Part shown: piece by piece, positions 6,917 to 48,100 of the stretch
How positions within the stretch are numbered: the stretch's first letter is position 1
Layout: the number at the start of each line of letters is the position of its first letter
Assembly: GCA_013415865.1 (NCBI GenBank)
Contig: CP058896.1
Location: 517,957-581,956, forward strand
DNA from: Methanomassiliicoccales archaeon
GTDB taxonomy: Archaea > Thermoplasmatota > Thermoplasmata > Methanomassiliicoccales > UBA472
Reading direction: 5' to 3'
DNA length: 64,000 nucleotides
Notes under the pieces: generated by a model
The model's database searches: none
What the model saw: the letters and a program-made list of their open reading frames with translations, nothing else
Told to the model about the DNA's origin: nothing
Position numbers and translations under genes: made by a program

Positions 6917-6921
6917 CTTCT

Positions 6922-10240: not shown

Positions 10241-10242
10241 GC

Positions 10243-10650: not shown

Positions 10651-10698
10651 CAATAGCTTGTTCTGATTGTTCGCGAACGGAGCGATATCCTAGTACCA

Positions 10699-10709
10699 AT
10701 TTTATATTC
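10699..10709 (+). promoter_or_regulatory. TATA-like element upstream of the P-loop kinase gene
   Basis: TTTTATATTCT lies about 70-80 bases before the chosen ATG at 10777, implying a leader of roughly 45-50 bases. Confidence 0.35.
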
Positions 10710-10776
10710 TTTTCTCAATCCACCACGATTGTGAAAAGGTCCCGGGATGGTCCCGGACCTGAATGGAAGTGAAAAG

Positions 10777-11599: not shown

Positions 11600-11880
11600 C
11601 GACAAGGTTCAGAATTATAAGGGTGTGCAAGGGCGAATCGATGTCCGCGATACCTCAGGATGTCGCCAGATATGACCTTGAGGCCTCGGCCATCGCTCTA
11701 AAGGAGAGAGGGTACGAGGTCGATGATAAAGAGGTGATGCTCCTGGCAAAGAAGGACGGCATCGAGGTGACGGTCTACATGAACGGCCGGCTGATGATCT
11801 CTCCGATGAAGGATAGGGAGATGGCCAAGAACTTGGCCGAGAACTTATATTCCATCCTTGTGATGGAAAGGGAAGAGTGA
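11596..11880 (+). CDS. Small protein, possible TBP-fold half repeat (paralogue B)
   Basis: A 94-residue paralogue of the preceding gene, overlapping its stop (ATGA). It has the same layout: FRIIRVCKGE, RYDLEASAIALKERGYEV, MLLAKKDGIEVTVYMNG, RLMISPM and a final helix AKNLAENLYSILV. The longer in-frame extension back to 11560 lies inside paralogue A in another frame and is rejected. The tandem copies could pair to mimic a two-lobed fold. Function unknown. Confidence 0.72.
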   Translation: MTTRFRIIRVCKGESMSAIPQDVARYDLEASAIALKERGYEVDDKEVMLLAKKDGIEVTVYMNGRLMISPMKDREMAKNLAENLYSILVMEREE

Positions 11881-11942
11881 TAGAGGAGAAGATCGCAACG
11901 ATATCTGGCCATTTTATATATAATGTAATTTTAATAAAAATA

Positions 11943-11952
11943 ATATATTTAT
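11943..11952 (+). promoter_or_regulatory. TATA element of the giant surface-protein gene
   Basis: TATATTTATA sits about 30 bases before the ATG at 11982 in a very AT-rich gap, which suggests a leaderless or nearly leaderless transcript. Confidence 0.5.
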
Positions 11953-11981
11953 AATCAAGAAATCGATAACATGGCACCGCT

Positions 11982-28801: not shown

Positions 28802-28879
28802 GGGTCTGTGGGGTAGCTTGGTCCATCCTTCGAGCTTTGGGAGCTTGAGACCCCGATTCAAATTCGGGCAGACCCACCA
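28802..28879 (+). tRNA. tRNA-Pro (anticodon TGG), CCA encoded
   Basis: Acceptor GGGTCTG pairs with CAGACCC, then A plus an encoded CCA at 28877-28879. The anticodon stem CGAGC/GCTTG surrounds TTTGGGA, giving TGG (codon CCA). T arm CCCGA-TTCAAAT-TCGGG. It marks the left edge of the AT-rich accessory region, a common integration position. I found no copy of its 3' end further on by eye. Confidence 0.93.
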
Positions 28880-28980: not shown

Positions 28981-29580
28981 TTAAGCAATAATCATTTTAA
29001 AAAGCCTGTCCCCAGTGTCGGGACCTTTTCCATCCTTCTGATATAATGTTTTTGAACCTACGAATTGATTTCTTGATGTTCGGATAGCGTATGCATTCTT
29101 TCCTTCGAGTACCTTTACCATTTTTTCTTGGACTACATTAACAGAAATAATCGCTTGGGTGCAAAAGTATTCGATTTTATTTAAAACTGAAAATAAACTT
29201 TGACCAGTATTTAGTACGGCATCCACCAGAATGACATATTTATTTTTAATGTAAGGCAAATTGTATTCAATATACTTATTAAAATAAATAGAATCTGGTG
29301 ATGACCATAGGGTGTCATTCTTTTCGTCCAATAACAGAAGAGTGCAATCTAATTCATCAACGATGCCCAATCCAAAACAAAGGCCGGATCGCATGAGACA
29401 TAAAGTGGTAAATTCCGCAGGATTTGTTTGTTTGAAATCCTGAGTGATTTGTCGACCCATAATTTTGCCAAGTTCGTAGTGTGCCAATCTAAGCTTTTGA
29501 CCTGTCACGCCAGAATCGCTTTTACAAATCTCTATGTGTATATTAACTTCGCTCGGGCAAACCTCAGATAATATCTTCAT
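28981..29580 (-). CDS. Uracil phosphoribosyltransferase-like protein
   Basis: A 199-residue type I PRTase-like protein. The PRPP-binding loop ILVDAVLNTGQS (about residues 117-128) and the C-terminal GKGPDTGDRLF resemble uracil PRTase (P-G-x-G-D-x-G-D-R-x-F). LMRSGLCFGLGIVDEL matches the upstream helix. The acidic pair at the PRPP loop is reduced to one Asp, so the substrate may differ from uracil. ATG 29580 follows GGGGAG and overlaps the preceding gene by 17 bases, so it is the last gene of an operon whose members could make or salvage a nucleotide-like metabolite. Confidence 0.78.
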   Translation of the reverse strand: MKILSEVCPSEVNIHIEICKSDSGVTGQKLRLAHYELGKIMGRQITQDFKQTNPAEFTTLCLMRSGLCFGLGIVDELDCTLLLLDEKNDTLWSSPDSIYFNKYIEYNLPYIKNKYVILVDAVLNTGQSLFSVLNKIEYFCTQAIISVNVVQEKMVKVLEGKNAYAIRTSRNQFVGSKTLYQKDGKGPDTGDRLFKMIIA

Positions 29581-30778
29581 GGATGCTCCCCACAACATCT
29601 ACCCCATGAAAAAAGAATTTGTTGTACACAGGTTGTTTAATTGAATGCCGATTTGCTAATAAGTATGTTTGGAGAGAGGAACTTATCTTTTGAGTGGCAA
29701 CAACATAGCTATTGTCTGCCATTTCGAGCATTATATAGTCATTCATGCTATCCCCAACAGCAACAACCCTCTTTCCTCGCTCCCTGAGGAATTTCGCAAT
29801 GTAACCCTTTAACATATCGGATACGACCAATCTGTCTGTGTTGAAGTTGCTCCCCCCTATAATTACATCGGGGAAGCCATTTGATTGCCTAATTATTTCC
29901 CAACTTTTATACAGACCAGAAGTTATTCCTACGAAATAACATCTATGTATTAATTTCACATCGTTTATGAGGGGCCAATTCAAAGATACACCTTTTGCAG
30001 CTTTGGAACAATAGTAATCATAATTATTTACCATTGAGTACCTCACGGCCATCTTCCAGAACTGGTATGAAGAGTATCTATTATCCCCAAAGGTTTCTTT
30101 CATGATTGTTGGACTTATGCCAGCGTACGTTAAGAAATCATATGTCACGTCATTTAACGCCAGAGTTCGATCACAATCTAATAAGCAGATGATATTTTTC
30201 CCAGAAGAATTGTTGATGATGTCTTGGACAATTTTTTTCGCGTTAGCGATTGTATCAGTGATTGGTTCCTTTTTTAATATTAGGTTGAAATATTCTAAAG
30301 CAGCTGGTATATCAGAATCGAATATTACAAGGTCCTTATCACGCATCACACATTCTTTTCTTAGGCCTTCAATCTCAAAATTTTTCCATGCATCAATGTC
30401 TTGGGTTCTAAGTCCTCGGTATTTCTCATTTTTATCTGAATTCTGCAATCTTTCAAGATTTTTATTAGATGGTGTATCCAGATAAACAAATAAATCATAG
30501 CAATCAGCATCATCCTCCGTAAACACTACTCTGAAGGTCCCGTTCATATCTGGGAAAGAATAATGCCCATCAACAACAAGGTGCTTACCTATCTGTTGAT
30601 TGACGAATCTAATGAAATCCTTTCTTATTGTTTCTTTATCGTGCTCCGGGAGGCTTTTGAACTTGCCATTCGATCTCTCGTCAAGCCACTTAGAGCCCTG
30701 GATGTGTATAACCTTATCTAAGTGAGTAATAAAAAAATCTTTTCCACTCCTCGGGAGACCATAAATAGCTACTTTCAC
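29564..30778 (-). CDS. P-loop kinase / HAD phosphatase fusion
   Basis: A 404-residue fusion. Residues 1-170 are a P-loop nucleoside/nucleotide kinase: IYGLPRSGKDFF Walker A (7-14), then KHLVVDGHYSF and a lid-like stretch with RLQNS and YRGLRTQD. Residues 195-404 are a HAD hydrolase: LLDCDRTLA (D201, D203), the T-containing GITSG motif near 287, then VGDSMND (342-347). All HAD motifs look intact. The GTG at 30778 overlaps the previous stop (GTGA) and has GGGAGG ahead. The combination of adding and removing phosphate in one chain is unusual. Confidence 0.8.
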   Translation of the reverse strand: MKVAIYGLPRSGKDFFITHLDKVIHIQGSKWLDERSNGKFKSLPEHDKETIRKDFIRFVNQQIGKHLVVDGHYSFPDMNGTFRVVFTEDDADCYDLFVYLDTPSNKNLERLQNSDKNEKYRGLRTQDIDAWKNFEIEGLRKECVMRDKDLVIFDSDIPAALEYFNLILKKEPITDTIANAKKIVQDIINNSSGKNIICLLDCDRTLALNDVTYDFLTYAGISPTIMKETFGDNRYSSYQFWKMAVRYSMVNNYDYYCSKAAKGVSLNWPLINDVKLIHRCYFVGITSGLYKSWEIIRQSNGFPDVIIGGSNFNTDRLVVSDMLKGYIAKFLRERGKRVVAVGDSMNDYIMLEMADNSYVVATQKISSSLQTYLLANRHSIKQPVYNKFFFHGVDVVGSIHEDII

Positions 30779-31719
30779 AAAGCTTCCTCCCGTCCATTTG
30801 TCGATGAGAGTGGGAACGTCTTTTGTTCTGCAATATGTGAGTCGTAATAACATTGATTTGGAGAGTTCGAATGAAAACGTTTCATGTTAAGTTCAACATC
30901 TTGAATTGGTGTGTCGTATTGACCTATGACATAATCTTCTAAATTTATAAAACGCCCACACGGGAAGATATTCCCATTTGCATAGAAAATGTTGGTTCTC
31001 CCGACCCCACATTTCATACCATACACAGTGCAATCATATGAGTCCATTTTCTGCAACTGGCGCATATCAAAACCTTGAACTAAGGCTTCTAATAAAAAAT
31101 GTTCAAATGACTCTGTGGAAATATTTAGTCCTAAATCGTATCCGCCGATCATTCTGGAAAAGCATACCCTGTTGAATCCATTGCTCTTAAAGAAATGAAA
31201 GACTTTTTCCCTCATTTCAATTGTCTTTGCGTGCACGGTGCAATTGATAATCGGTTCTTCGCCAAACATTGATGTGTAACGCTTAACTGCATCCATCACG
31301 ACATCAAAGCTACCACTATCATCATGCCCCTTCCGACAGAGATTATGCAATTCTCTATAACCATCAAGTGAAAAGTTGAGATTGATTTTATTTTTCTCCT
31401 CTTTAAAAAATGATAATATTTCTTCTGTTACAAGTGTCCCGTTTGTGATTGTATAAAATGAAAATAAATCACATCTTTTTGAATAATTTATTATTTTCTT
31501 GATAAGGTCGAACTGCAATAATGGCTCGCCTCCGCCTACGAGACCTATCTTGAACCGTTCTACCCTCCTCTCCTCAGCATATTCCATAAAATTATCTAAG
31601 ATGAGCTTGATCTGATAGAATGTCATATTCTCATGCTTTGCTCTATTTCTTCTAAGGTGACAATAGCTACAATTCATATTGCAATCGCCACTAATAGAAA
31701 TGCACGCTCGATCAATCAT
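30775..31719 (-). CDS. SPASM-like radical SAM protein
   Basis: A 314-residue radical SAM enzyme. The cluster motif CNMNCSYC (Cys 13, 17, 20) is followed by a GGGEPLL SAM-binding segment. The C-terminal third has extra cysteines (DCTVYGMKCG, FPCGRF, NQCYYDS) and an NGNIFPCG signature as in SPASM proteins, which often modify peptides. No precursor-peptide gene is visible. Its stop overlaps the kinase-HAD start, so it is the second gene of the four-gene operon. Substrate unknown. Confidence 0.82.
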   Translation of the reverse strand: MIDRACISISGDCNMNCSYCHLRRNRAKHENMTFYQIKLILDNFMEYAEERRVERFKIGLVGGGEPLLQFDLIKKIINYSKRCDLFSFYTITNGTLVTEEILSFFKEEKNKINLNFSLDGYRELHNLCRKGHDDSGSFDVVMDAVKRYTSMFGEEPIINCTVHAKTIEMREKVFHFFKSNGFNRVCFSRMIGGYDLGLNISTESFEHFLLEALVQGFDMRQLQKMDSYDCTVYGMKCGVGRTNIFYANGNIFPCGRFINLEDYVIGQYDTPIQDVELNMKRFHSNSPNQCYYDSHIAEQKTFPLSSTNGREEAL

Positions 31720-31740
31720 TTAATCTCCCGCCAGTTATGA

Positions 31741-32985
31741 TTATCGTGCTAAATTTTCTGAGCGAAAGAGTTTTTTAATCCGCTCATTTTTAATAGCATA
31801 GTCCTCGGCAATCTTTCCTTCTCTGCTTCTTACATCTTTGTCTGTCCCATCAATCAGTAACTGAACAATTTCAGGGTGGTTCCTTATGCAAGCTTTCATA
31901 AGTGGAGTGTAGCCATTGTTATCTTGCTGGTTCAGGCATGCTCCTTCTTTTATCAACAACTCTGCTATTTCTTTAAATCCGCTCCAACAAGCAATCATAA
32001 GTGGAGTGTTTCCTGCATTCTTACCATTACTTCCCAGGTCAAAGTCGCAGCCTCCAGCAATAAGTTTTTTCACGATCTCTATGCTATTTAATTGAACTGC
32101 ATGGGAAATGGGTGGAAGTTCATACTTGCTCATATCCATTTTGTTGATGTCGGTACCAGGGAGGGAAAGGAGGAAATCAATCGCTTGTAAATCCCTATTC
32201 CTAATTGCCTGAATCAAGGGAGTGAACCCCGAATTTGGATCGATTTTATTAATGTCTATACCTCTTGCCAGAAGCTTTTGAGCTTTATCCAGACGCTTGG
32301 CCTTAATCTCGCTAAAGAATTCTTGCGTGGCCACTTGATCGTACAAGCAAGCATCCTCATATAGGATGCTACTATATTCGCTTAGAGATATAAATTTGAG
32401 GTTTGGAGCGAATTTCTTTTGCAATGAAAAATATATGTCATCTGAAAGAACATTAACAACGGCATTTGGATGTTCACGGGCCTGAAGGGATGCCATATAG
32501 ATGATTCGGTCATCATTTGTTTCCCTCTTCGATTCATCGAGAATATATTCCACCTTGCTACCAGGCTTCTTTAAATGTTCTTCGAGTCCAGCCATGGCCA
32601 CCCATGCTTGCTGTCTCATCTTATGATTACTTTTTTCTTTGATGTGATTAAGCTCTGATATGACTATCTCTGAAACAAGGACCTTATCGAACTTTCTAAC
32701 TAATTCCTCAATTAACCTAGGCCTCTTCAATAAAACTGATGTGTCAGGAACTATCCATGACTCAACATTCACATTTATTCCTAGAATCGAATCTACGCTC
32801 ACCGAAAATGTTTTACTTATGAGAATTAATTGTTCCGACGTTGGAATTACTTTCCCGTTCTCCCAATTTGAAATTGTTGGCCTAGCGACACCAAGCTTTT
32901 GTGCGAAATCCTCCTGAGATAAACCATTTCTTTCCCTGAGGTTTCTAATCTTAACCGCTATTGAGGAGTAATCATTAAAACTCAT
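31741..32985 (-). CDS. XRE helix-turn-helix / PIN / ankyrin-repeat fusion
   Basis: A 414-residue protein, first gene of the operon. Residues 8-70 form an XRE HTH (LSQEDFAQKLGVARPTISNW). Residues 76-205 form a PIN RNase domain with the four acidic positions D81 (VPDTSVL), E111 (ISELNHI), D158/159 (NDDR) and D182/183 (SDDIYF). Residues 220-410 hold about five ankyrin repeats (GFTPLIQA, NTPLMIACWSG, GYTPLMKAC). It may autoregulate through HTH and cleave RNA. ATG 32985 is chosen because TTATAAAAAG lies about 30 bases upstream; an earlier TTG (33000) is possible. Confidence 0.82.
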   Translation of the reverse strand: MSFNDYSSIAVKIRNLRERNGLSQEDFAQKLGVARPTISNWENGKVIPTSEQLILISKTFSVSVDSILGINVNVESWIVPDTSVLLKRPRLIEELVRKFDKVLVSEIVISELNHIKEKSNHKMRQQAWVAMAGLEEHLKKPGSKVEYILDESKRETNDDRIIYMASLQAREHPNAVVNVLSDDIYFSLQKKFAPNLKFISLSEYSSILYEDACLYDQVATQEFFSEIKAKRLDKAQKLLARGIDINKIDPNSGFTPLIQAIRNRDLQAIDFLLSLPGTDINKMDMSKYELPPISHAVQLNSIEIVKKLIAGGCDFDLGSNGKNAGNTPLMIACWSGFKEIAELLIKEGACLNQQDNNGYTPLMKACIRNHPEIVQLLIDGTDKDVRSREGKIAEDYAIKNERIKKLFRSENLAR

Positions 32986-33000: not shown

Positions 33001-33384
33001 CTCATACTTTTTATAATTATCGATATTTTTATATTTTTTAAATGTAATATATAATTACAATTGCTCGGAATTTGTAAGAATTATATACACACGACAAATT
33101 ATTATATATAATATCATAATAATTTTATTAAACATATTTCTAATCAATGAAATTATATAATAATAAAGATGAGATTATCAATAAGCACAATGGAGATTTG
33201 TTTCAAATTATGGTCCAAAGATGTGGCCTTAGAAATTTGAATAAACCCTTTTTTCGAAATGGTTATTTTTGATACGATTTGTTGCTTTACTGAAATTGTA
33301 GTTCCACCCAATATTTTTAGAAGACTGTTGCACTTATTAAATCTGGATAGTATTATAAGTTTGATTTGAAAATTATTATCTGGG
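33001..33384. other. AT-rich noncoding stretch with the operon promoter
   Basis: About 380 bases, strongly AT-rich, with the leftward TATA (TTATAAAAAG, about 33008-33017) next to the XRE gene. No open frame or RNA gene is evident in the rest; many short A/T runs only. Confidence 0.4.
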
Positions 33385-34719: not shown

Positions 34720-37700
34720 CTACATCTGTGAGTTCATCGCATTTACTATTTGTTCGTAGAACAGGTCCATCGCCCTTGGGTCATCGAGGTCGGTGGCGGC
34801 AATTTCGATCACCTCTATGCCCATCGATCTCAATCTGCTCCGTATCATGCGGTCCCTGTTTTTGACGCCTTGATTTCCATGGATGTTCCTTGATAGCCCG
34901 TCCAGATAGATCGCGATGGTTATCTTGCCTTCTAAATTCCTATAATAGAAGTCTGGGTATGTTTGGAACCGCTTATCAAGTTCGACCGTTATCTCGCCCT
35001 GTGGCTCAAAGCCCCAGATACCCTTTTGCTTAAGCCAGGCAGCCAATCTATCTTCTGCTGAATTCGTACATCCCCAATCCTCTCCCCAGATCGTCACACA
35101 AGGGGGGACGCTGCCTATCTTTTCAACCGTTCCCTTGAATTCGTTCAACATTTTGACGGCCAACCCTCTGTCCAATTTTTCATGATCGACCATGTTGCGA
35201 TAGGTCTTCATACAGTCGTAACATGCTTTGGCACAATTGCCTGGACAATTCTGTAGCACCCTTGACCCGGTCTCGATGATCTCGGACCATCTTTCGATTA
35301 TCTGATCGATCAAGCCCGATCCTCCTGGCATCGGATCGTAAAGCATGACGTCGAACATCCCGTCCATGTTTGGCAATATAATTATCTGAAGGTCCTCTAC
35401 CTCCATTTCTAAAAGAACGGCCGCGGCGATCCTTATTCCTTCTGTCAGGTTTATCGCCTCATCTAAACTCACCAGCCCTGAGAACAGCAAACCATCTACC
35501 TGAGATTCGGTGTAAAGACCTAACCGGGACGGGGCCACGCTACAGCTGACCTTATGTTTTTTCTCGAAATCCTTTATTGTCTCATCCGAAGCGTAAGGAG
35601 ACCGGACAGCCCCACAGACAGCGCATATCGGATAGCCTAGATTCTTATCCTTGACCTGGTCCGCCGCACCTATATTGACCAATCTGACCCTTTGTCCATG
35701 CCTGTGCTCGAACTCCTTTCTTACCGTAAGTCCTGTCCTATATCTATCGATCCCACGATGCTCATTGCGAAGATGACCAGTCATGAAGACCGGCATCCTG
35801 AAACGTCCTTCCTCTTCATCGGACACGAGCGAGATAAATGCCAGTTCAACATCTCCGATCGGGATGGCCCCGAGTTCCTTTACATCGTCCGACCGATAAT
35901 CTGTAGGTGTCTCGTTAATCTCATAAATTGACTGTTTATTGACATCGACCATGAACTTGTCTGGGCTGGTCTGACCTCTGTCCAATGGTAAATGATAATA
36001 TGAGGTCTTGTAACGTCCGCCGTTTGCATAGATGATGTTTCCAGGAACGAACTCCTGTACAGCCAAAGTGTTCGGACGTGGGAGATCGAATGATATGGGC
36101 CTCGAAGAGGTGCTGTAAGACCTTACTGCAAAACCTATGGTATTGCCCTGACTGGACGTATAACCTGGCAGGAAGCCTTCTCTGGCCAATACGCTCAATG
36201 TATAATTTTCCAGGTCGCTCTTGGTTATCTTCTCAATGTAATCCTGACATCTCTTTTTCAGACGTTTCTCACCTTCGTCCAATGAAACGACGTCCTTTTC
36301 TTTTTCTGACAGGTTGTCCCTGGTCATCTTCGCCCACATCATCCTTCTGTGGATCGTCTTCACATGTTCAGCGAGCTTGAGGCCTGTACTTGAGATGTAT
36401 TCTCTCAATCTCACCTCTTCGACCTCTGAGATCGCATCGAGGGGCCAATTCTCCTTGAACACGCCATTGATATACCGCTCGATCTCTGGACCTACAGATT
36501 CTATCGTTCTCTGCAGCGGGGAGGTGTCGAGCGGTCTGTGACGATATTTTCCGTTCTCATCTATGATGTAATCCCTGATGAAATTGGGAAGGTATTTACT
36601 GAGCTCAGACGTGATCTTCGGGTCGGCGCCATCGGCCTTGGCCGCTTCAAATAATTTGGTCAGCACGCACGCATGGACATGCTTCTCGATCATGACCGGA
36701 TTGCGTAGGTTGAACCTCGGTGGGCCTATGCGCCCCGACAGTATGCGCATCGGTTCCTCGAAGAAATACTCATCATGGACGCTTTTCCTGCAATACGTGT
36801 AAATGACGGCCATCCTATGTCTTCGGCCCGCCCTGCCTGCCCTCTGCCAATAGTTTGATGAAAGAGGGGGGACGTTGCGCATCAGGACCATGTCCAGGGC
36901 CCCGATGTCTACCCCGAGCTCGAGGGTGGGCGTTGCCACGAGGCAGTTGACCGCCCCATTGGACTTCTTGAACTCCTTCTCTATGTCATGACGCATCTCT
37001 TGCGGGACCTGAGCGGTGTGCTCTTTTGCCACCAACATGGTGAAGTCCCTTTCCAGAAGGCTGACGTCATAATCGTTCTCAGATGGTTCCTGTCTTTCGA
37101 GATGTCCCCTGCAATTATATGCTGTACAGACCATCCTCGGTGTCGCGCGGGTATGTGACCTGCCACAGATATTGCACACGAATTTCTCGTTTTGGATCAC
37201 TATTCCGATCTGGCTTGAGTCGACCTGATAGGCACCTGAGCTTCCCGGAAGCGGACGCCCTCGATGATCTATCAATGTCACGGATTTGAGCAACTTCCAT
37301 TTAGAGACCAGCGCCGACCAGATGTCTTCCACGAAATCTGTTATCTGTCCTTCCTCGACCCCCCATTTTCTAGCCAGATGCTGGACCAAGGTGCTGCCTC
37401 GATCGGAGAGCAATTGCGTGATGTAGTCCTTCTTATCATTACCTTCTCTCCTCAGCTTCAGACCTTTTGGGGGATAATCCCTGTAGGGAAGGTAACCGCG
37501 CAGAACATCAGGGCTCCCCTCTGACCAACGCTGGGTGAAGATGGGCTCGACAGGGTCGTAAAAATGTCCCTGACGGCGGAACACGTCCAACAGGTTCTCG
37601 ATCCCCAGGACAAGGTCGGTGGTGGAGATTCCATATTTCACTGCCAGGTCCTGGACCGTCCCATCGCTCTCATCGAGCCCGTAGTAGATGACCTTCGCCT

Positions 37701-40080
37701 TACCCCAACCTTCCAAGTTCTCCGACTTGCTGAATGAGGTGACCAGCTCCCTTATCAGGAGTATCCTGAGGTAACGTTTCATTTGATCATCGAGGTGTGT
37801 AGTGAACTTTTCCTCCACCTCTCCTACGAAGACCTCGGGGGCCAGTGCCCTGGCAAGGTCGTTGTTCTTTTTAAGCTGCTCCTGGAGCCTGCGTTGTATG
37901 TCCCCTATTGACATAGGTGAACTTGCATCTTTGATGATCAGGTAGATCATGTGGCGCAAACGATACCTTCTGGCGTGGTCTGCCATCCATGCGGCCTGGA
38001 ACGCCGCGTCCTGACGGTTATCGGCGAACACGATCAATTTGCGGTTGTCGACAGCCTGTGAGTTGATCATATTCTGCGCCATGATATGGACATCTGCGAC
38101 CTGGACGGCGCTCAGGGGACGGAGCGGGGACCTTTGCTTCCCTCCAGCCCGACCACCGGATTGACCACAGCTTGGGCAAGAAGAGACGAAGCCGTCATTA
38201 TCGGTCTTGATCACGTAGATAGGCAGCAGCTCGTCCTTCTTGGCGCATAAGGGGTTCGAGCATTTTATTGATGACATCCAATGTATGGAGCCGCAATGCC
38301 TGCACAGATACATCAACTGCCTTTTCTCGTCCAATCTCCTAGAATGTTTTTCGCTGTCCTCGAGGTCCTCCTCCTCTGAGACAAAACGATTTGTGAATAC
38401 TACCGTACGTCCTTCTCCTTCTGGACTGACCCTGAGGAATGTGTTCTCCCCAGAGATTTCCCCTACGAGTTCTTCTCCATTTTGGACCGCCTGATGTACC
38501 TGGGTCTGGAAGTAATGCTGTCCGCAGTTGCCGCAGCTCAGCACCGGGTATATGACCTCTGGAACCACATCCTCGGTGTGCGCTGCCTTGGCCTTTGAAA
38601 AATACAGCCTCGCCTGGGTCTGTCCTTTTTCAATATAGAGCGTTGCGACGGCACCGGTCATTCCTCGGACAAAATAATGCAGCTGAGGTCTCAGCAGCGG
38701 AACGCCATCTTTCTCCGCTGCCGCCCCTAGGGCGAGATATGTAAGCACCTCGAGGGTCGCATTCGGATCCGGGTCTTTTCTGTCCAACCTGTTCCATAGC
38801 TCCTTCGTCACCATCTCGATTGGCTTCGGCTCGCTTATGATCTCGAACAGGGAACGGACCACCCCATTGCGGCGGAGGACGTCGTACAGGGAAGACCTCC
38901 AATCCGAGGATACCTTGATGCCTGTTCCGATCTTATCGATGATCTTAGATGCATATTCCATCCCTCTCTCTGAATCGACCATCTCCAAGGCCATATCATA
39001 GAGCCCGGCCGCTTCCTCACCGAATTTATCTGGAACAATATTTTCCTCTGCCCAATCCTGTTCATCATACCGTTCCTTCACCAGAACGACCTTTTCCTTA
39101 TCTACACCGAAAAAACGATGAGCGAACTTTCTGGCAGCATCCTTGTCGTTCGGGTCGACGATGGTCGCGCTGGTGCCGATGCAGATCACATCATCGGACG
39201 TCTTCTTGCAGAAGGCCCTCAGGCGGCGGATGAGGACGGAGACCTCGGCACCTCTCGAGCCGGTATAGGTATGGGCCTCATCGAAGACGATGAACTTCAA
39301 AGGGGCGTCTGAGAACATGCCCAGGTCCTTACCTCTGGTGAGGAGGAACTCCAGCTGGTTAACGTTGGTGAGCAGCAGACGTGGAGGGTCATCCCTCATC
39401 TCCTCTTCAGATATCCTTTCCTCATAAGGAGCGAACGACGTGGTGGGATCGTCAAGATATCTTTTCTTATAGGATTCTACATGCTCGGGCCCCTCGCCTT
39501 CTTTCATCTTGACCAGGCCCGTGACGTTCTCATTCTTCTCAGGCGTGGACCCGACATACATCCCGTACGTGATCCCTGTTCCGACCAACAATGGCCTTAA
39601 TCTTTCCAACTGGTCCTGTGCTAGGGCGTTCATCGGATAGACGATGATCGCCACGATGCCTTTCCTGGCGTTCTGGTCTTTTAACCTGAAGCAATGGTCC
39701 AGTATAGGGTACAGGAAGGCCTCCGTCTTGCCCGACCCCGTGCCGGTCGAGATGAGGCAATGCTTTCCAGAGGTGACCGCGTCAAAAGCGTCCTGCTGAT
39801 GCGCATACATCTTACGGATGCCGTTCCTCGAGAATATCTCCTGGATGCCGGGATGCAATCTACCAGCTCGGACCAGTTCATCGAGGCCCGCACCTTCTGC
39901 GAACGATCGCGAGAGGGATATGTACGGTCCCTTTATCAGCTCGGACCTGGCGCTGTGAAGTCCGAGCATCTCCTCGGCCTGACGTGAAAGGTCCTTGTCA
40001 GAGAGGGGAAAGGCAGATAGCTGATATCGAAGGAACTGGCGATTGACATCTTCGGCGAATGCAATTGGGTTTATCGTCAT
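34720..40080 (-). CDS. DISARM/Druantia-type large helicase-DUF1998 protein with C-terminal nuclease-like domain
   Basis: A 1,786-residue protein. Lhr-like SF2 helicase core: Walker A STGTGSGKT (about 111-119), DEAH in VFDEAHTYTG, SAT motif IGTSAT, and motif VI in YWQRAGRAGRR. Many zinc Cys pairs lie between. Then the DUF1998 region has DPMPGGSGLIDQI and CPGNCAKACYDCMKTY with RNMVDHEKLDR. The last about 115 residues look Vsr/PD-(D/E)XK-like: SAEDRLAAWL, YPDFYY, IAIYLDG then a His, and RDRMIRSRLRSMGIEVIEI. It resembles DrmA plus DrmB joined, or DruE. ATG 40080 follows GGAGG and the methylase stop by 16 bases. Confidence 0.82.
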   Translation of the reverse strand: MTINPIAFAEDVNRQFLRYQLSAFPLSDKDLSRQAEEMLGLHSARSELIKGPYISLSRSFAEGAGLDELVRAGRLHPGIQEIFSRNGIRKMYAHQQDAFDAVTSGKHCLISTGTGSGKTEAFLYPILDHCFRLKDQNARKGIVAIIVYPMNALAQDQLERLRPLLVGTGITYGMYVGSTPEKNENVTGLVKMKEGEGPEHVESYKKRYLDDPTTSFAPYEERISEEEMRDDPPRLLLTNVNQLEFLLTRGKDLGMFSDAPLKFIVFDEAHTYTGSRGAEVSVLIRRLRAFCKKTSDDVICIGTSATIVDPNDKDAARKFAHRFFGVDKEKVVLVKERYDEQDWAEENIVPDKFGEEAAGLYDMALEMVDSERGMEYASKIIDKIGTGIKVSSDWRSSLYDVLRRNGVVRSLFEIISEPKPIEMVTKELWNRLDRKDPDPNATLEVLTYLALGAAAEKDGVPLLRPQLHYFVRGMTGAVATLYIEKGQTQARLYFSKAKAAHTEDVVPEVIYPVLSCGNCGQHYFQTQVHQAVQNGEELVGEISGENTFLRVSPEGEGRTVVFTNRFVSEEEDLEDSEKHSRRLDEKRQLMYLCRHCGSIHWMSSIKCSNPLCAKKDELLPIYVIKTDNDGFVSSCPSCGQSGGRAGGKQRSPLRPLSAVQVADVHIMAQNMINSQAVDNRKLIVFADNRQDAAFQAAWMADHARRYRLRHMIYLIIKDASSPMSIGDIQRRLQEQLKKNNDLARALAPEVFVGEVEEKFTTHLDDQMKRYLRILLIRELVTSFSKSENLEGWGKAKVIYYGLDESDGTVQDLAVKYGISTTDLVLGIENLLDVFRRQGHFYDPVEPIFTQRWSEGSPDVLRGYLPYRDYPPKGLKLRREGNDKKDYITQLLSDRGSTLVQHLARKWGVEEGQITDFVEDIWSALVSKWKLLKSVTLIDHRGRPLPGSSGAYQVDSSQIGIVIQNEKFVCNICGRSHTRATPRMVCTAYNCRGHLERQEPSENDYDVSLLERDFTMLVAKEHTAQVPQEMRHDIEKEFKKSNGAVNCLVATPTLELGVDIGALDMVLMRNVPPLSSNYWQRAGRAGRRHRMAVIYTYCRKSVHDEYFFEEPMRILSGRIGPPRFNLRNPVMIEKHVHACVLTKLFEAAKADGADPKITSELSKYLPNFIRDYIIDENGKYRHRPLDTSPLQRTIESVGPEIERYINGVFKENWPLDAISEVEEVRLREYISSTGLKLAEHVKTIHRRMMWAKMTRDNLSEKEKDVVSLDEGEKRLKKRCQDYIEKITKSDLENYTLSVLAREGFLPGYTSSQGNTIGFAVRSYSTSSRPISFDLPRPNTLAVQEFVPGNIIYANGGRYKTSYYHLPLDRGQTSPDKFMVDVNKQSIYEINETPTDYRSDDVKELGAIPIGDVELAFISLVSDEEEGRFRMPVFMTGHLRNEHRGIDRYRTGLTVRKEFEHRHGQRVRLVNIGAADQVKDKNLGYPICAVCGAVRSPYASDETIKDFEKKHKVSCSVAPSRLGLYTESQVDGLLFSGLVSLDEAINLTEGIRIAAAVLLEMEVEDLQIIILPNMDGMFDVMLYDPMPGGSGLIDQIIERWSEIIETGSRVLQNCPGNCAKACYDCMKTYRNMVDHEKLDRGLAVKMLNEFKGTVEKIGSVPPCVTIWGEDWGCTNSAEDRLAAWLKQKGIWGFEPQGEITVELDKRFQTYPDFYYRNLEGKITIAIYLDGLSRNIHGNQGVKNRDRMIRSRLRSMGIEVIEIAATDLDDPRAMDLFYEQIVNAMNSQM

Positions 40081-40096
40081 TGTTCTTCCCCTCCTT

Positions 40097-42289
40097 TCAA
40101 TAATCAAATAGCTTCTTTTGCGCGTTCATAGACGTCTCTAGTGTTGACATTTTATCAGCGGCAGAATCTAGGACGTCTTTTACACTTGGACCGATGACCT
40201 TGTCTGGGCCGCCCTCTTCCATTTCTTTCATGAACTTTTTGAAACCTTCATCCCCCAGAATATTGCGGGCATGCATCTCGCATTCCCTCCAGCTCTCCTC
40301 TGGAGTACCCTCAAGCTGCCAAGGGAGATATCTTGGACCGAGACATGAGGCAACCTCACATTCCGTTCCGTTCGGGTCGTCGAAATTCATCATTCCTTGG
40401 TCATCCAAAGAGATCTTCAGTTTATCTGGTATTGCCCAACCATCCCCTTCATTTAAATTGATGAAATTGTCAAACCCGATCTTGTTCATGTCGTGATAGG
40501 CGGCCAGGGCCAAGGTCGTTAATCGGATCTGGATCGGTTTCCGTGAATCGACGCGCCAGAATCCCTTTGGGTCCGAATCGTCCAACCTCAATATCCATCG
40601 GAAATCATCGTAACTGAGACCGTATAGATGCGCATTGATGGCATCAAGGATCGCCCTGATCCTGATCCTTTCATGATCGGTGACCGCCCATAGTTTTTTC
40701 ACGTTGTAATTCTCGATCTGAGGGATTTTTTTCCTTAAAGAGATCCAATGCGCTGAAAATATTTTATTGGCTAATGCAAGTCTGGCGGAGAATAATGCAA
40801 CTTTATTATTGAATTTAATAAGAGTTGGTAATGGTGTGTCTTCCAGTATATGTAAATTGAGATGTGTTCCCCCTACCCTAATCCTCAATGAATAATCGTA
40901 AGATAATGAGTTTATTGATGATAATAGGCATATATAATAGTCGATTTTTAATCTATCATCTAATTCTACTATTGGAACGGCATTTATACTTGGATAGTCG
41001 GGGATCAACGCCGCAATCATCGTTCTTTCATTTGTGGAGTTTGTTATGTCCCTGAAACCGATTTTTGATCTGACGCTCTCTGATCTATACTTAGGGTAAA
41101 CACTAGATGGCATAACAAATTGTGGTTCAATGTTTTTCTCGGATGTGAAAGGTATCTGCCGCCATATCGTCTTGCTGCCAGAGCCGCTGACGAATCCTTG
41201 ATAGCTAAAATCGTACTGCCATATCATAGCACCTTGATAAACCGGCAATCCTATGTCCCCAGGAGGTCCGATCTCCTTATCTTTGTAAATCAGTTGAGGT
41301 CTCTCCCCTTCAGGCGGCAACCATCGCCCGTACTGGTCAGGGCGATATCCCTTCTCCTCCCACCAGCTCTTCGGCGGGAAGAGATGGGAATCGTTCGTCA
41401 TATCGAACTCTCTGTCATATTTGATCCCCCAGCCCTTTTCACTGTTATCCCCAAGCAGAACCGAGCTGGCATAGATCTTCGTCAGGATCTCCTGGTCCCT
41501 CTTCGTCCTGATCTCCAATATCGATCTCGACCTGGGCGAAAATCTCTCGATCTGTTCTCTGGTATAATCGATCGCGAACTTCTCTGGGTCCTCCCAATCG
41601 GCAAGGTCGTGCCTCATGAAAGCTGTGCGTATCCTCTCTGTCCTTCCGCCTTTTTGCACGATGACGGGCCCGAACTTGAAACTTGAATGTATATGGAATA
41701 TTTTCTTCCTGTTCTCGAAACAGAATATCCAATCCCATCTGCTGCGATCGATGAAAAGTTCCCTGAGCGCCTTTGTACCTAGGTCGGTAAAAATGCCAGA
41801 AGGCACTATCATCCCCATCCTTCCATTCTCTTTGCATAAGGACCTGGACAGCTCCAGGAACATCTTGTATGTGTTCAGGTCCGCGCTTCCCTGGTGCCTG
41901 AAAGGATGCTCAGGGTCTGAGAAACATCTGTGTTTGGCCCTTCGGGACCTCCAGACATCGTGAAGGTCCATCTTCTTTTTCCCTTTTTGCGATTTAAATG
42001 GCTCGGATGACCCCCCATGATCCTCGTCCAAAGGGTCCCCGAAGGGGAATGCGACGTTCTTGACCCAATTCGTCATCGCATTAAAATAGGCCTGGTGGGC
42101 CACCCATGCGTGCTCAATTCCATCGTTCTTTGCAAACAGTTTCTTCTGAACATCGAGGGCCTCCTGCTTTCCATAGGTCCTGTAGATAGGGTCATATTGA
42201 GAGAAGAATTCCTTTGATATGGGCTTGGATACCTCCCATGGCGGGTTTCCCACTACGGCGTCGAAGCCTCCTGCCCCGTTGACGAACAC
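40097..42289 (-). CDS. Adenine-specific DNA methylase, C-terminal part (after frameshift)
   Basis: The 730-residue frame holds the catalytic motif FDAVVGNPPWE near its start, then regions typical of PglX/Eco57I-type methylases (LELSRSLCKENGRMGMIVPSG, SKTIWRQIPFTSE) and a target-recognition-like half. In the +1 frame just upstream the expected FFHWELEFPDVF text runs straight into it, so it is the second half of one gene, not an independent one; the GTG at 42289 is only the first start-like codon in the block. The broken gene is part of a DISARM-like cassette, ending 16 bases before the helicase start. Confidence 0.85.
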   Translation of the reverse strand: MFVNGAGGFDAVVGNPPWEVSKPISKEFFSQYDPIYRTYGKQEALDVQKKLFAKNDGIEHAWVAHQAYFNAMTNWVKNVAFPFGDPLDEDHGGSSEPFKSQKGKKKMDLHDVWRSRRAKHRCFSDPEHPFRHQGSADLNTYKMFLELSRSLCKENGRMGMIVPSGIFTDLGTKALRELFIDRSRWDWIFCFENRKKIFHIHSSFKFGPVIVQKGGRTERIRTAFMRHDLADWEDPEKFAIDYTREQIERFSPRSRSILEIRTKRDQEILTKIYASSVLLGDNSEKGWGIKYDREFDMTNDSHLFPPKSWWEEKGYRPDQYGRWLPPEGERPQLIYKDKEIGPPGDIGLPVYQGAMIWQYDFSYQGFVSGSGSKTIWRQIPFTSEKNIEPQFVMPSSVYPKYRSESVRSKIGFRDITNSTNERTMIAALIPDYPSINAVPIVELDDRLKIDYYICLLSSINSLSYDYSLRIRVGGTHLNLHILEDTPLPTLIKFNNKVALFSARLALANKIFSAHWISLRKKIPQIENYNVKKLWAVTDHERIRIRAILDAINAHLYGLSYDDFRWILRLDDSDPKGFWRVDSRKPIQIRLTTLALAAYHDMNKIGFDNFINLNEGDGWAIPDKLKISLDDQGMMNFDDPNGTECEVASCLGPRYLPWQLEGTPEESWRECEMHARNILGDEGFKKFMKEMEEGGPDKVIGPSVKDVLDSAADKMSTLETSMNAQKKLFDY

Positions 42290-45128
42290 GTCGGGGAACT
42301 CCAGCTCCCAATGGAAGAACCCCGAACTTCTGCGCCAAGGCCCTCGCGCGCTTCATCATCGACTCCGAAGGGGAGTAGAACGCCTTGGGCGTCGGAGGCT
42401 CGTCCATCCAATCGCCTGGCCAGAACCACACCGCACACCACAGGTCAAATCTTGATCTTAGGTCCTGGAACTCTTTGTTGTCCTCGAAGGCCGAACGGTA
42501 CGCCTGCTCCCTCCTCTCGAAACCGTCGCCGAAGAGGGGAAGGTCATGAAGATCGGCGATCCTCTTGCCAAGGTCGGCCATCAACGCCCTTGGAACGCCG
42601 TCATCACCGTACTCCCAATCGTCGAGGGTGTGCTGTCCCAGTAAGATGCTCTCCAGCTCAGGCTTGACCTTCTTTGAATAAATGTCCTTGATCTCCTCGG
42701 TCCAAACTTTTTTCTTGTGATGGACGCCGTCGTGCTTCGCGTCCCCTCCCTCCCGCTTCCATGCCAAAAGGGGATACTCCTGGAACCTGTCCGCCCAGCA
42801 TCCCACCAGGCTGTTCCCGCACTTCAGTTTGTGGTCCAAGAACCCGAATGGGAGGCCGCGGTCCATGGTCTCGACCCAGAGCGAGAGCTTGGCAAGTTCC
42901 ACCGCAAGGTGGTTGATGTCGACCCCGTAGATGCATCTCTCCACCACGTATCTCTTGAGCCTTGCCTTCACCTTCATCTCGAAGGCTTCGTCGTCGGTCC
43001 TGCAGGGAATGATGTCCTCGGGAAGAAGCCCTTTTGACCTCTCGCCGAAGGGAAGGACGACAGCGGTCTGGTCTTCGGGCAAAGATCGGAATCTGTTATG
43101 CTCCCAGAGCGAGCTGTAAAGACAGTCGGTGATGTAATTCAGCGCTGCGACCAGGAAAGAGCCGGAGCCCATGGCGGGATCGCATACCTTTACGGACAAT
43201 ATCTCCTCGGGGGTCTTCGGTACAAGGACCTTCCTTCCTTCGACCTCCTTCACATCGTTCAGCAAGGGCTCGAGCGTCCTTATGACCGTGGGGACGGCCA
43301 GCTGCGGCTTGGTATAGAAGGTGCCCGTGCCTTTTCTTGTACCGCTCCCCCGCACAAGGTAGGTCTCGCCCGCCTTGACCTCTTTTACAATAAGTCTGGC
43401 CGCGGCCTTTCTCCTCTCCTCTTCATACCTGATCATGTCCGGGTTCTTGCCCCTTGGCCTCTTGACTATGCCCGCTTTCTCGACCGCTCTCATGGCCCAA
43501 AGAAGGGCATCGGGGACCACATCGTTGCAAGATAACGATGGCCCTTCTTCTTCAGACGATATCGCCTCAAGCTCAGGCTCTTCATTGGAGCATGCCTCAT
43601 CCTCTGGCCCCTCGGAGCCCTCTTCGTCCTCATCATCAAGTTTTTTCGTCTCGACCTTCCCCAGCTCCTTTATCATATTTTTCAGAGAGCTGTCATCGAG
43701 AGATTCCAATAGCGACAAAGGAAGAGCGGGCTGTTCGCCTATGTTGAGGAAGATCACCGCCTTCTCCTCTTCCTTCACCCTCCGGAGCCGATAATCGAGC
43801 AGCCCCTCGTACATCATCCCTATGTACTCTGTCCTCAGGTCCGAGAAGTCGACCAGTCCCGAGACCTTTCTGGTGCTCCTTCCGACCTTTATCCTTACCT
43901 CTCCCTTCTTCAGCCAGTTCAAGACCTTGAGGACGGTTGCATCGCTCACCTCGTTCCGTTGGTCCTCGAACAATGCCAACGCCCGGAGGACGGGGTCGCT
44001 GCTTTTCTTGTCCCCTCGTCGGAACAACGCCCCGCCATAGGGGATTATGTTAAGATTCACATCTGAGGAGCCCTCATGAATAAGCCTGAAGAGGGAAAGA
44101 AGCCTGGGCCATGAATACTGGGCCGTCTCCAATGAATTTAGGCCCAATGTGGTCTCGGCCTTCTTCAACAGGGCGTAGAGGCCCTCCACGCCATATGAGG
44201 CGTGATAGGATTCTATGTTCCTCGGCAACAGATCACGGGACTCGGCGAACAGCACCACCACGATCCTCATCACGAGGCGAATGGAGGCCTGATAGAGGGC
44301 CTCCAGCTCTTCTTCCTCTGAGATCGTAGAGTGGCTGACCGGGTCTTTCAAAAGGATATCCCTCATCTCAGGATAAAGTCTCATGGACCTGTCCAGGGAT
44401 GACAACAGCTCCTCCACGGCCAATCTTGTGTTCTCTCCGAGCACCTGTGAGAGCTCCCCCTGCTTGGAACGGCTATCAAGGACCGCCTGTAGCAGACGAT
44501 GCTCGTTGCCTTTGGTGTTGAACTCCGGGCCGCACAGGGCCTGGAACCCCGCGAGCTGCTCCCTTCCCTCGATGTTCTCGAACCATCTGGCCACATCCCA
44601 TTCGACCCAACTGTCCGAATCCATCGCAGCGTAGACAAGGCGGACCTGCATTCCGTTCGTGATAATCCCGAGCTTGACGCCAGTTCCGCGCAAGAGCTCC
44701 ACGAACTTGCTGTACTCGCTCCTCGCCCTGCCCATCCCGACGGCCCTGGATGTCCGGTCTATCTTCAACATCAGGCGTGGGTTGGACTCTGATTGGAAGA
44801 ATAGGACACGGTCCGGCCGGAGCTCCAGTTGGAGCTCTGAGGTTTTCAGTTTGAACCTGTCAGAGACGCTAGCGTCCTTCTGCCAGGTGGATGAACCGTA
44901 TTCCAAGAACGACTCGAAGAGGGCGTTTATCCATATCCTCAAAGGCGTGGGATCGGGCCTCTCCTCCTGTTCGAACCAGGTACGGAACTTGGCGTAGGCG
45001 TCCCTCAATTTCTCATATTTCTGCTGATCGACCGGGGCGGGACCTTTTGGCAATTCATCCTCCAGGACCGAGGGAGAGATCAACATCCCGTTCTGCTTGA
45101 GTTCGTAGAACCAGCGGTTGTTGCTCAT
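42192..45128 (-). CDS. Adenine-specific DNA methylase, N-terminal part (frameshifted)
   Basis: The 978-codon frame contains the N-terminal restriction-associated region and a methylase motif I VCDPAMGSGSFLVAAL (about 647-662), with GTGTFYTKPQLAVPT before it. It runs out of frame at a CCCC (GGGG on the coding strand) at 42320-42323, and the last about 45 residues (VLPLGAGVPRRVRQRGRR onward) are out-of-frame nonsense. Removing one G would restore KFGFFHWELEFPDVF and join it to the downstream frame (total about 1,675 residues). ATG overlaps the helicase stop (ATGA). Likely the DrmMI/PglX-like methylase of the cassette. Confidence 0.87.
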   Translation of the reverse strand: MSNNRWFYELKQNGMLISPSVLEDELPKGPAPVDQQKYEKLRDAYAKFRTWFEQEERPDPTPLRIWINALFESFLEYGSSTWQKDASVSDRFKLKTSELQLELRPDRVLFFQSESNPRLMLKIDRTSRAVGMGRARSEYSKFVELLRGTGVKLGIITNGMQVRLVYAAMDSDSWVEWDVARWFENIEGREQLAGFQALCGPEFNTKGNEHRLLQAVLDSRSKQGELSQVLGENTRLAVEELLSSLDRSMRLYPEMRDILLKDPVSHSTISEEEELEALYQASIRLVMRIVVVLFAESRDLLPRNIESYHASYGVEGLYALLKKAETTLGLNSLETAQYSWPRLLSLFRLIHEGSSDVNLNIIPYGGALFRRGDKKSSDPVLRALALFEDQRNEVSDATVLKVLNWLKKGEVRIKVGRSTRKVSGLVDFSDLRTEYIGMMYEGLLDYRLRRVKEEEKAVIFLNIGEQPALPLSLLESLDDSSLKNMIKELGKVETKKLDDEDEEGSEGPEDEACSNEEPELEAISSEEEGPSLSCNDVVPDALLWAMRAVEKAGIVKRPRGKNPDMIRYEEERRKAAARLIVKEVKAGETYLVRGSGTRKGTGTFYTKPQLAVPTVIRTLEPLLNDVKEVEGRKVLVPKTPEEILSVKVCDPAMGSGSFLVAALNYITDCLYSSLWEHNRFRSLPEDQTAVVLPFGERSKGLLPEDIIPCRTDDEAFEMKVKARLKRYVVERCIYGVDINHLAVELAKLSLWVETMDRGLPFGFLDHKLKCGNSLVGCWADRFQEYPLLAWKREGGDAKHDGVHHKKKVWTEEIKDIYSKKVKPELESILLGQHTLDDWEYGDDGVPRALMADLGKRIADLHDLPLFGDGFERREQAYRSAFEDNKEFQDLRSRFDLWCAVWFWPGDWMDEPPTPKAFYSPSESMMKRARALAQKFGVLPLGAGVPRRVRQRGRRLRRRSGKPAMGGIQAHIKGILLSI

Positions 45129-48100
45129 TCGGTCGCCTCCTTTGGCAATATGACCTCTACGCCCGCGACCTGGACGTCGACACCGTTCTCGACCAAAGAG
45201 TACCTGTTGGGCAGGACGCGCTCGAGCATCCGCTCCCTCTCTCGGTTAAGTTTCTCGAGCATCACCTCTATGTTTTTCCTGCCGGTCTCCGATCTCAGTT
45301 CCTCGTACTCCTGCCGTTTTATCTCGTACTCCAGCCTTCTCTCCTCATTTATGTCTTCGAACAATGTTTGCTGCCGCCACCTTTCTTCTGCTTCCTTGAG
45401 TTCGTCCAATAATTTTTCAATGTTCTTAGGGTCTGTCCTTTCCATCAAGGACCTTTTCCTGAGCTCGAACAGCTCCTGATATTCCTTAGAACGGAGAGAG
45501 CGCTCCCTCCTAAGCTCCTCCTCAGTTAGGGACGCTATCTGCTTGGCTATCTCCTTCTTGCGAATCTCCAGAGCGCTCTCGACCTTTATCCACTTCGACC
45601 TGACCTCTGGAAGATATCTCTCAAGTTTGGACCTCTCTATTTTATCTGGAAAGGTGGAAATCTCTTTGGCAGTGTTCAAGGGACCGCTGTCGCCCATGAC
45701 CATCGTCTCTTTGAAAATTCCCGTCCTGGCCCTTTCTCCAAGCTTGTTGGTCGCGGTGATCAAGAAGAACACATTGAATGCGATGATGGATCTTGGAACT
45801 TTCCCTTCTATTATCGTCCATCGGCTAAGCCCTGAGTCGTTGCTTGGCATCCATAATCTCCTTTTGAATGATAGAAGTGCCCTTTCCATGAGAGGATGCG
45901 ATAACATCAGGAGCCTGGTGTCCTTTGGCTGCCTGAAAAAGTTGAGACCGTTCTCGATGGTGACCATCCGTGAAGGGTCGAAACATATTTTGGGATATCC
46001 TACACCCTGATGGGATTTTATCAGCAAGGACCCTTCGACCAATTTTTGCCATTTCAGGGGGATCTTGTAAAATCGATAGAAGCCCTCGCCCTCCTTTCTT
46101 ATCTCTCCTTTATCCGCTTTATCGAGCACTATGGCCTGATCCAACAATCTGGCAATGCCGCCCTCACCGATCCCTAGGATCTCCCGGGTCTCCTCGAACA
46201 TCTTCATGGCAACGGAGTACTCGGTCTCCGTCCCCTTCGAACTGAAGCTTATATCTTCCTTGTCCTGTCCATCTTTCTTGACCTTCCCTAGCTTCTCCTC
46301 TATCTTCTTTTCGTCGACATTTCCATTTGTGAAGTATTCTAAGACCGCCTCGTCCAGCACCTTGCCCATACTTCCCAGGTCCTCTCGCACATTATGGACC
46401 TTTCGGACGACCTTGTCCAAGAAGAGAAGGTCCTCGGACTGGTCGGATACGAAATGATGGACCACGACATCCCTGACCTGCCCATGCCGGTCCACACGTC
46501 CATTCCTCTGCTCCAACCTCATGGGGTTCCAAGGGATCTCCTGATGGATGACGTACCGGCATGAGGTCTGAAGGTTCAGCCCTTCCGATGCGGCATCGGT
46601 GGCGACCAATACCCGAAGCTGTGACGACGGTTCATTGAACTCTTCCTTGACAAGCCGCCTTTGGTTCGCGTCGGCCCCACCATACAATAATTGTAGAACA
46701 GGTTCTTTGAACCCCATCTGGTTCAATCTCTTGACCAGATAGTCCTGAGTGTCCTTGTACTCTGTGAAAATGATCAATCGCTCATCGCCACGTACCTTGC
46801 CCTCCACCATCAGGTTCTTCTCGATCCATTTTTTAAGCTGTTCCCATCTGCTGTCGATAGGGAGATGCTTCACGTTTGCCATCTGGATGGTGTTCTCCCT
46901 CGTCCATCCCAGTTCCTCGAGGGCTTTCGATACGGGACCGATATACTGGTCAAGGACTGCTTTGTACCTTTTCAACCAGGCGGCCCCGTGGCGTACCGCG
47001 TCCTCCTCCCTTTGCTCCTTCTCTTGGTCCTCATCGACCGGTTGCTCCGCCCTTTTCCTAGATTCTTCAGCCTGTTCCCTGTCGAACTCTTCCAGATCGA
47101 AACCATCGACATGGTTCCACCATGAGCGGGCGAAAGCGTAGGAGGAGGAAAGAAGACGTTTTGTCAGCAATTGGAGTATGAAGCCTCCAAGTGCTTTCTC
47201 CTTCCTGCCTAACCGCCCCAGCTCCCTCGTGCCCATCGAACGATATCTGGCCATGGCATCATAGAGGCGTACCTCTTTCTGATCCATGATAACGGGGATG
47301 GCCGTCAATGATCTCGACGTGAACCTTTTTTTATCTTGGTTCAGCTGTGACTTCATCCTCCTTATCATTACAAGGCCGATCTGCTTGTGGTCCTCTTCAT
47401 TTAGCTTCGTCTTCTGATGGAACCTTACCGGGTCCAAAAGCTCGAGAAGACCTGTGAAGGATTCTGTGTGGCCGTTATGAGGGGTTGCGGTCAAGAAGAG
47501 CCTGTGCTCGAAAAAAGGTGCGACCTGGCGCAACATCGATACCCTATCGCTTTGATCGTTCAAGCTCGAGGGCATGAAGTTATGGGCCTCATCGACGATG
47601 AGCATGTCCCATGGTAGAAGGGAAGAATCCTTGGGCAAGAGGTTTTGTGATCCATTGGAGAAACTGCTCAATACATATTTCTGCTTCAGATAGTCCATCG
47701 ATGTTATTATGCGCGGAAAAGCGGTCCATGGGTTGAGATCGATGCCCAGCTCCTTTTGGACCTGGAAAACCTTATCGCTGTCCATGATCTCAAAATCAAG
47801 ATGGAACTTTTCCCTCATCTCGTCCTGCCATTGGATCTGCAACGATGCGGGACAGATGATCATGATCCTCCTTATCCGTCGTTGGCGGATAAGCTCTTGA
47901 AGTATCAGTCCGGCCTCGATTGTTTTCCCAAGGCCTACATCATCTGCGAGCAACATGTTCACTCTGGGCATGGCCATGGCCTTGAGGACAGGGTACAATT
48001 GATAGTCCTCGACCTGCACTGAGCTGAACCAGGGGCTGAGGACCGATAAACTTCTAGATTGCAATCTTTCATTGTTCAAGAAATAGGAGGTGTTCGATGT

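Follow-up and report, generated by a model that had tools for sequence, protein, structure and literature searches.

In one branch of the Ter system, nucleobase phosphoribosyltransferases (PRTases) and HAD phosphoesterases have been proposed to make a nucleoside or nucleotide signal, with a proposed anti-superinfection role in phages (PMC7824862). Bacterial viperins produce ddhCTP/UTP/GTP (PMC10732462). Here, we analyzed a stretch of 64,000 nucleotides (hereinafter referred to as the window) from the complete 1.82-Mb genome of a Methanomassiliicoccales archaeon (CP058896.1, positions 517,957 to 581,956), in which an operon at 28981-32985 on the minus strand joins a PRTase and a HAD phosphatase to a radical SAM enzyme (rSAM), a P-loop kinase and an XRE-PIN-ankyrin protein. 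The genes, in operon order, are as follows:

31741 to 32985, minus strand: XRE (HTH_3)-PIN_4-ankyrin protein, 414 aa, predicted autoregulator and RNase effector/sensor
30775 to 31719, minus strand: short SPASM-like rSAM, 314 aa, with CxxxCxxC and C-terminal Cys 230/237/254/290, one predicted auxiliary [4Fe-4S] site
29564 to 30778, minus strand: P-loop kinase fused to a HAD phosphatase (kinase-HAD), 404 aa, with a GTG start codon that overlaps the stop of rSAM
28981 to 29580, minus strand: uracil phosphoribosyltransferase (UPRT)-like PRTase, 199 aa, UPRTase PF14681 at 32.7 bits (cut-off 27) and Pribosyltran at 29.7 bits

Successive genes were separated by +21, -4 and -17 nt. Pfam matches above cut-off on the four proteins were HTH_3, PIN_4, Ank, Radical_SAM, HAD and UPRTase, with AAA_18 below cut-off. 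The original prediction for this DNA had described four closely spaced minus-strand genes in an AT-rich block with intact catalytic residues, and this description held throughout: coordinates and gaps were confirmed, the GC content was 0.37-0.39 across 29-33 kb versus 0.52-0.60 on the side of the neighboring tRNA-Pro gene, and alignments showed that the catalytic residues of all four proteins (PIN, rSAM, HAD, kinase and PRTase motifs) were conserved among homologues. A Sigma-70 promoter scan gave a result no better than chance.

The four activities were found in the same order, mostly in overlapping genes, in about 15 loci (numbered with L; genomes with G), distributed over one further archaeal genus, spirochaetes (Treponema among them), Clostridia, and five phage or prophage contigs. 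The genes thus stay together across genomes, the check that had been proposed for the operon, and a gene order shared by two domains and by phages excludes chance. The four-activity operon is, with near certainty, a real unit. A complete copy with 61-77% identity was present in another genus of the same family (L003), and a copy at a contig edge was found in another family (L009). Scanning genome-wide with the alignment of rSAM recovered bacterial copies from Treponema (L010), Ruminococcus (L011) and Clostridia (L012). Additional genomes searched by profile contributed spirochaete (L099, L100, L101) and clostridial (L113, L114, L119) loci as well as an archaeal fragment (L117), and tblastn located the PRTase of L114. 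Neighboring operon genes overlapped or almost touched in 14 tabulated loci, the exception being a NERD-domain gene inserted in L011. The operon was rarely encountered. Within the archaeal order of the window, 8 of 147 genomes matched the kinase-HAD profile, and four of these eight carried the operon or part of it; the profile matched 4 of 296 spirochaete-phylum genomes, and 2 of 275 and 3 of 291 genomes in two clostridial samples, the sampled genome groups overlapping one another.

Across 14 loci, the identity matrices of rSAM, kinase-HAD and PRTase were closely correlated (r = 0.87-0.95), whereas the correlation of the XRE-PIN-ankyrin matrix with the three enzymes was low (r = 0.31-0.42), which may partly reflect that the variable XRE part is more difficult to align. 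In addition, two consecutive XRE/PIN-ankyrin genes preceded a single enzyme set in a prophage (L146, 6532-9035). Taken together, this is the pattern expected if the enzymes form a conserved core and the effector or sensor can be exchanged. Some loci contained further genes. In L003 (genome G015), a fifth gene encoding a 405-aa protein with no recognised domain (11509-12726), absent from the window, overlapped the archaeal operon end. A NERD-nuclease-domain gene accompanied the clostridial or prophage operons of L011, L114, L146, L147, L148 and L151, either downstream or inserted after rSAM; this assignment was made by Pfam in L011 and L114 and by sequence similarity in the other loci.

When viral contigs were scanned with the XRE-PIN-ankyrin alignment, five distinct contigs of phages or prophages proved to carry the complete operon. 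In L145, it lay in opposite orientation between head/portal genes (portal protein, PHROG 2739, E 1e-67) and the terminase large subunit gene (PHROG 2, E 2e-31). In L146 and L147, it directly followed tail, holin and endolysin/amidase genes and preceded serine integrases; the slot between endolysin and integrase is the usual place of lysogenic-conversion cargo. The operons of L148 and L151 adjoined serine recombinases. L149 was left out of the count, as a truncated repeat of part of the L147 phage, and L150 was rejected since it contained ankyrin genes only and no operon. Viral scans with the archaeal or Ruminococcus kinase-HAD patterns gave no matches. Collections of plasmids and of isolated phages likewise yielded nothing when searched with PIN and with the archaeal, Ruminococcus and prophage forms of kinase-HAD. 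Outside phages, L113 had conjugation genes nearby (type IV secretion system coupling protein, DUF3801 and RepA_N), indicative of an integrative and conjugative element (ICE)-like element, and a serine recombinase gene was located near L011. Defence-type genes were also found beside the archaeal copies, namely genes for DrmD and helicases in the window, DUF499/DUF1156/NOV_C genes together with an integrase in L003, and a DUF4011 helicase in L009. Proteins with DUF499 and DUF3883 occur in restriction operons (PMC3710099). Phage carriage and these neighbors uphold the mobile accessory character attributed to the operon, and a mobile conflict role, be it defence, superinfection exclusion or addiction, appears likely from this context.

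The XRE-PIN-ankyrin protein matched HTH_3 (63.5 bits), PIN_4 (51.1 bits) and Ank_2 (98.9 bits). A search of the genome for PF01850 PIN domains was negative because the domain belongs to PIN_4. Residues D81, E111, D158 and D183 were invariant across 10 homologues. The protein thus shares the catalytic acidic residues of the PIN domain with VapBC, and no separate small cognate antitoxin gene of the VapBC style was present in the operon, in which XRE is fused to PIN. Mean pairwise identity was highest in the ankyrin part (45%), followed by PIN (35%) and XRE (32%). Upstream of this gene, the following feature was identified:

33043 to 33059, no strand assigned: palindrome TGTAAT-N5-ATTACA, putative operator, approximately 60-74 bp upstream of the XRE-PIN-ankyrin start codon

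It was the sole match with at most one mismatch in the 64 kb (0.09 expected), although the motif was first spotted by eye in upstream regions and the figure is post hoc for the founding sequences. The palindrome also preceded the orthologues in L003, L009, L010 and L145, with 0-1 mismatch; the clostridial copies, which have different XRE domains, lacked it. This distribution suggests a predicted site of autoregulation. PIN-ankyrin genes without XRE, frameshifted at A-runs, were found in L100 (7557-8559) and L101 (about 6100-7173); the kinase-HAD and PRTase frames beside them were open, which may reflect phase variation, decay or sequencing error.

The rSAM matched Radical_SAM with 66.7 bits. 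CxxxCxxC was conserved among its homologues, as were Cys 230, 237 and 254; Cys 290 was missing from a single homologue only. This pattern is consistent with a single auxiliary cluster and lacks the second SPASM set, so that the expected SPASM-like character holds for one set of auxiliary-cluster cysteines and fails for the other. The AlphaFold model (pLDDT 82) was best matched in the PDB by CteB (5wgg) and anSME (4k37), with viperin and MoaA weaker. Assignment as a viperin was rejected on scores, namely 56 bits on NF038283 (equivalog cut-off 180) and 61.5 bits on PADLOC pVip, versus 224 bits for a true pVip in L118. Assignment as a PapB-type ranthipeptide maturase was likewise rejected: PapB was the nearest NCBIfam model, with 120 bits far under the cut-off of 340, and the genes of the window operon lie too close together (-17 to +21 nt) to accommodate a precursor gene. 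Most matches at about 25% identity (L013-L089) were other rSAM families, and so were most matches of one further search.

For kinase-HAD, the longest open reading frame starts at 30853, and the AlphaFold model (pLDDT 92.5) confirmed the kinase. Foldseek matched its N-terminal half to archaeal adenylate kinases (E 5.9e-8) and its C-terminal half to the HAD family and phosphoserine phosphatase (E about 2e-5), and the profile matched the phosphoserine phosphatase 1f5s (E 1.2e-6). The HAD motif DxDxT, K324 and D343 and the Walker A lysine were conserved among homologues. Solitary kinase-HAD genes without the other three were present in the same archaeal order (L008, L115 and L116); the P-loop is damaged in L116 (GLPCVAKAE), and the kinase of L008 is short by about 40 residues. 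PRTase searches returned UPRT structures first (best 2ehj), and the PRPP loop and a GPDTxDR-type tail were kept in most of the alignment. The enzyme belongs to the UPRT superfamily on the basis of its PF14681 match above the gathering score and its UPRT-type tail, and is distinct from the housekeeping upp equivalog (18.5 bits, cut-off 208). PRTase was fused to kinase-HAD in L011 and L012 (one 533-aa protein) and in L100.

A relative of the operon kinase was encoded in another genome of the same order (G1356; L118, 4463-7111), where the true pVip mentioned above is followed by a PemK/MazF-like RNase and then by a 487-aa protein with an N-terminal kinase homologous to that of the operon (hhalign probability 97.9, E 3.5e-13). 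The recurrence of an RNase, a radical SAM enzyme and the kinase family of the operon favors nucleotide chemistry.

On this evidence, the best explanation is that the operon is a horizontally mobile conflict module, borne by phages and defence islands, whose enzyme trio would control the PIN-ankyrin RNase through a nucleotide-derived product; we assign this a probability of roughly 0.45. The XRE part would repress the operon at TGTAAT-N5-ATTACA, and the PIN domain would serve as the RNase effector. PRTase may couple a uracil-like base to phosphoribosyl pyrophosphate, the adenylate-kinase-like domain may phosphorylate the resulting product and HAD may remove the phosphate, while rSAM would modify the nucleotide or, alternatively, PIN-ankyrin. 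The trio would thereby make and turn over a nucleotide-derived ligand, or install a modification, that sets PIN-ankyrin activity. The ankyrin repeats would sense the state of the ligand, and the RNase would be freed once the nucleotide pool is upset by infection or by a rival phage. Gating of PIN-ankyrin by a nucleotide ligand is advanced tentatively. The original prediction of a nucleotide-derived signal or metabolite with a PIN effector is partly supported: it gains from the coherent, co-occurring mobile operon, from the PRTase and HAD core of nucleotide chemistry as proposed for Ter, and from the link between the kinase and viperin, and loses part of its argument from a tRNA-borne island (see below).

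Several points weigh against this explanation. The usual binding partners of ankyrin repeats are proteins, and the matches to RNase L were of a generic ankyrin kind. Further, rSAM is closer to peptide and protein maturases than to viperin, which makes a protein no less likely a substrate than a nucleotide. The spirochaete locus L100 carried PIN-ankyrin and a kinase-HAD-PRTase with no orthologous rSAM in the genome; rSAM is therefore not always needed, although this copy also looks decayed. As to whether rSAM would act on a nucleotide or on PIN-ankyrin, its relatives argue for protein and its partner genes for nucleotide. In L100, a different, divergent radical SAM gene (10187-10996) converges on the operon, either as a replacement or by chance.

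The same observations bear on toxin-antitoxin addiction, in which PIN-ankyrin would be a toxin kept inactive by a trio that modifies the toxin or its ligand, with rSAM, whose translation comes directly after that of PIN-ankyrin, acting on PIN-ankyrin itself, as sulfatase maturases modify sulfatases. The kinship of rSAM with maturases is in line with such a role, as are the start-stop overlap of PIN-ankyrin and rSAM genes in most loci and carriage on prophages and an ICE-like element. Moreover, enzyme genes that outlast a frameshifted PIN-ankyrin (L100 and L101) and solitary kinase-HAD genes (L008, L115 and L116) fit an antitoxin outliving its toxin, but both frameshifts occur at A-runs and are possibly sequencing errors. 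PRTase and kinase also suit small-molecule chemistry better than protein modification, and we know of no precedent for a three-enzyme antitoxin. Addiction is judged unlikely.

The radical SAM chemistry of the trio could instead yield a viperin-like antimetabolite, a modified nucleotide that poisons phage RNA or DNA synthesis, with XRE-PIN-ankyrin mainly a regulator or backup. All family rSAMs tested scored on pVip models (45-62 bits), the kinase family adjoins a true viperin in G1356, and the known nucleotide products of bacterial viperins provide a parallel. These scores nevertheless remain far from those of a true pVip and of the viperin equivalog cut-off given above, and the C-terminal auxiliary-cluster cysteines are a SPASM-like rather than a viperin trait, which makes an antimetabolite quite improbable. 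Radical SAM, PRTase, HAD and kinase are also typical tailoring enzymes, and the rSAM relatives include maturases of ribosomally synthesized and post-translationally modified peptides, as in a nucleoside or peptide natural-product operon with a dedicated regulator and no immune role. Such an operon is very unlikely, given that the overlapping genes leave no room for a precursor peptide, no transporter or resistance gene was common to the loci, and neither the PIN RNase nor residence in phage genomes fits such a role. Lastly, RNA end-healing, with PIN cutting RNA and kinase-HAD healing the ends like T4 polynucleotide kinase-phosphatase, is highly improbable: the kinase-then-HAD order is the same and the best viral structure match of kinase-HAD was a phage polynucleotide kinase (E 5e-5), but no RNA ligase (ATP-grasp or RtcB) was among the four window proteins or recognised beside homologous operons, HAD is similar to phosphoserine phosphatase, the kinase to adenylate kinase, and PRTase and rSAM would be left unexplained.

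Regarding the chromosomal setting, the operon lies next to the following feature:

28802 to 28879, plus strand: tRNA-Pro(TGG), detected by ARAGORN, left edge of the AT-rich, lineage-variable segment

A genome of the same genus kept both the left flank with tRNA-Pro (28.88 kb) and the right flank (about 58.3 kb), and carried unrelated genes in the 29 kb between them; with both flanks kept and the interior exchanged, the segment is lineage-variable. No repeat of the tRNA 3' end (at least 12 nt; att site) was found within the window, and no integrase was seen in its AT-rich segment, so that classical tRNA-island insertion is unsupported. Of the mobile island suggested to follow the tRNA, the variable segment beside tRNA-Pro stands, and the argument for insertion there is weakened. 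The window also contained a DISARM-like defence cluster (34720-48382) with a DrmD helicase (718 bits) and an MZB-domain/DruE-like helicase, and neither DrmB nor DrmC was seen in it. Its DrmMI-like methyltransferase was split over overlapping frames (40097-42289 and 42192-45128) by a frameshift or sequencing error.

No described system with this combination was found in PADLOC (2023), PHROGs, NCBIfam or the openly licensed literature. PADLOC v2 (2023) gave no match for PRTase or kinase-HAD, its matches to rSAM and XRE/ANK covered partial domains, and no single known system was matched. Within the scope of these searches, the operon is a real, mobile module of four activities that lacks an earlier description; its role in conflict is probable and its mechanism a proposal. 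With Ter it shares the biosynthetic pair of PRTase and HAD, to which it adds radical SAM, an adenylate-kinase-like domain and PIN-ankyrin; TerB/C/D/F and TelA were not recognised in the scanned window proteins or scanned flanking genes, most flanking genes being read by eye only. It resembles pVip/SAND in combining radical SAM with a nucleotide-type kinase, whose family accompanies a true pVip in G1356, and differs from it in the low rSAM score, the SPASM-like auxiliary cysteines and the added PRTase, HAD and PIN-ankyrin. The PapB, CteB and anSME maturases are nearest to rSAM by sequence and fold, whereas the operon rSAM falls under every equivalog cut-off, has one of two auxiliary cysteine sets and lacks a precursor gene. 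T4 Pnkp shares the order of the kinase-HAD fusion, and the operon differs in having no ligase and other kinase and HAD subtypes.

A broader reading by analogy, in which the trio makes and erases a novel modified nucleotide that switches the ankyrin-PIN RNase, would amount to nucleotide-signalled immunity in archaea, bacteria and phages and to an independently evolved RNase L-like pathway; this is doubtful. If true, it would represent a new kind of small-molecule-controlled RNase system in the prophages and defence islands of two domains, and, as the operon is compact and conserved, laboratory hosts would allow a direct test of the hypothesis. The likeness to RNase L/2-5A is an analogy of logic only, consisting of ankyrin repeats, an RNase and its proposed gating by a partner-made nucleotide, whereas the RNase of the operon is of PIN rather than KEN type and lacks a kinase-like domain, and the enzymes are unrelated.

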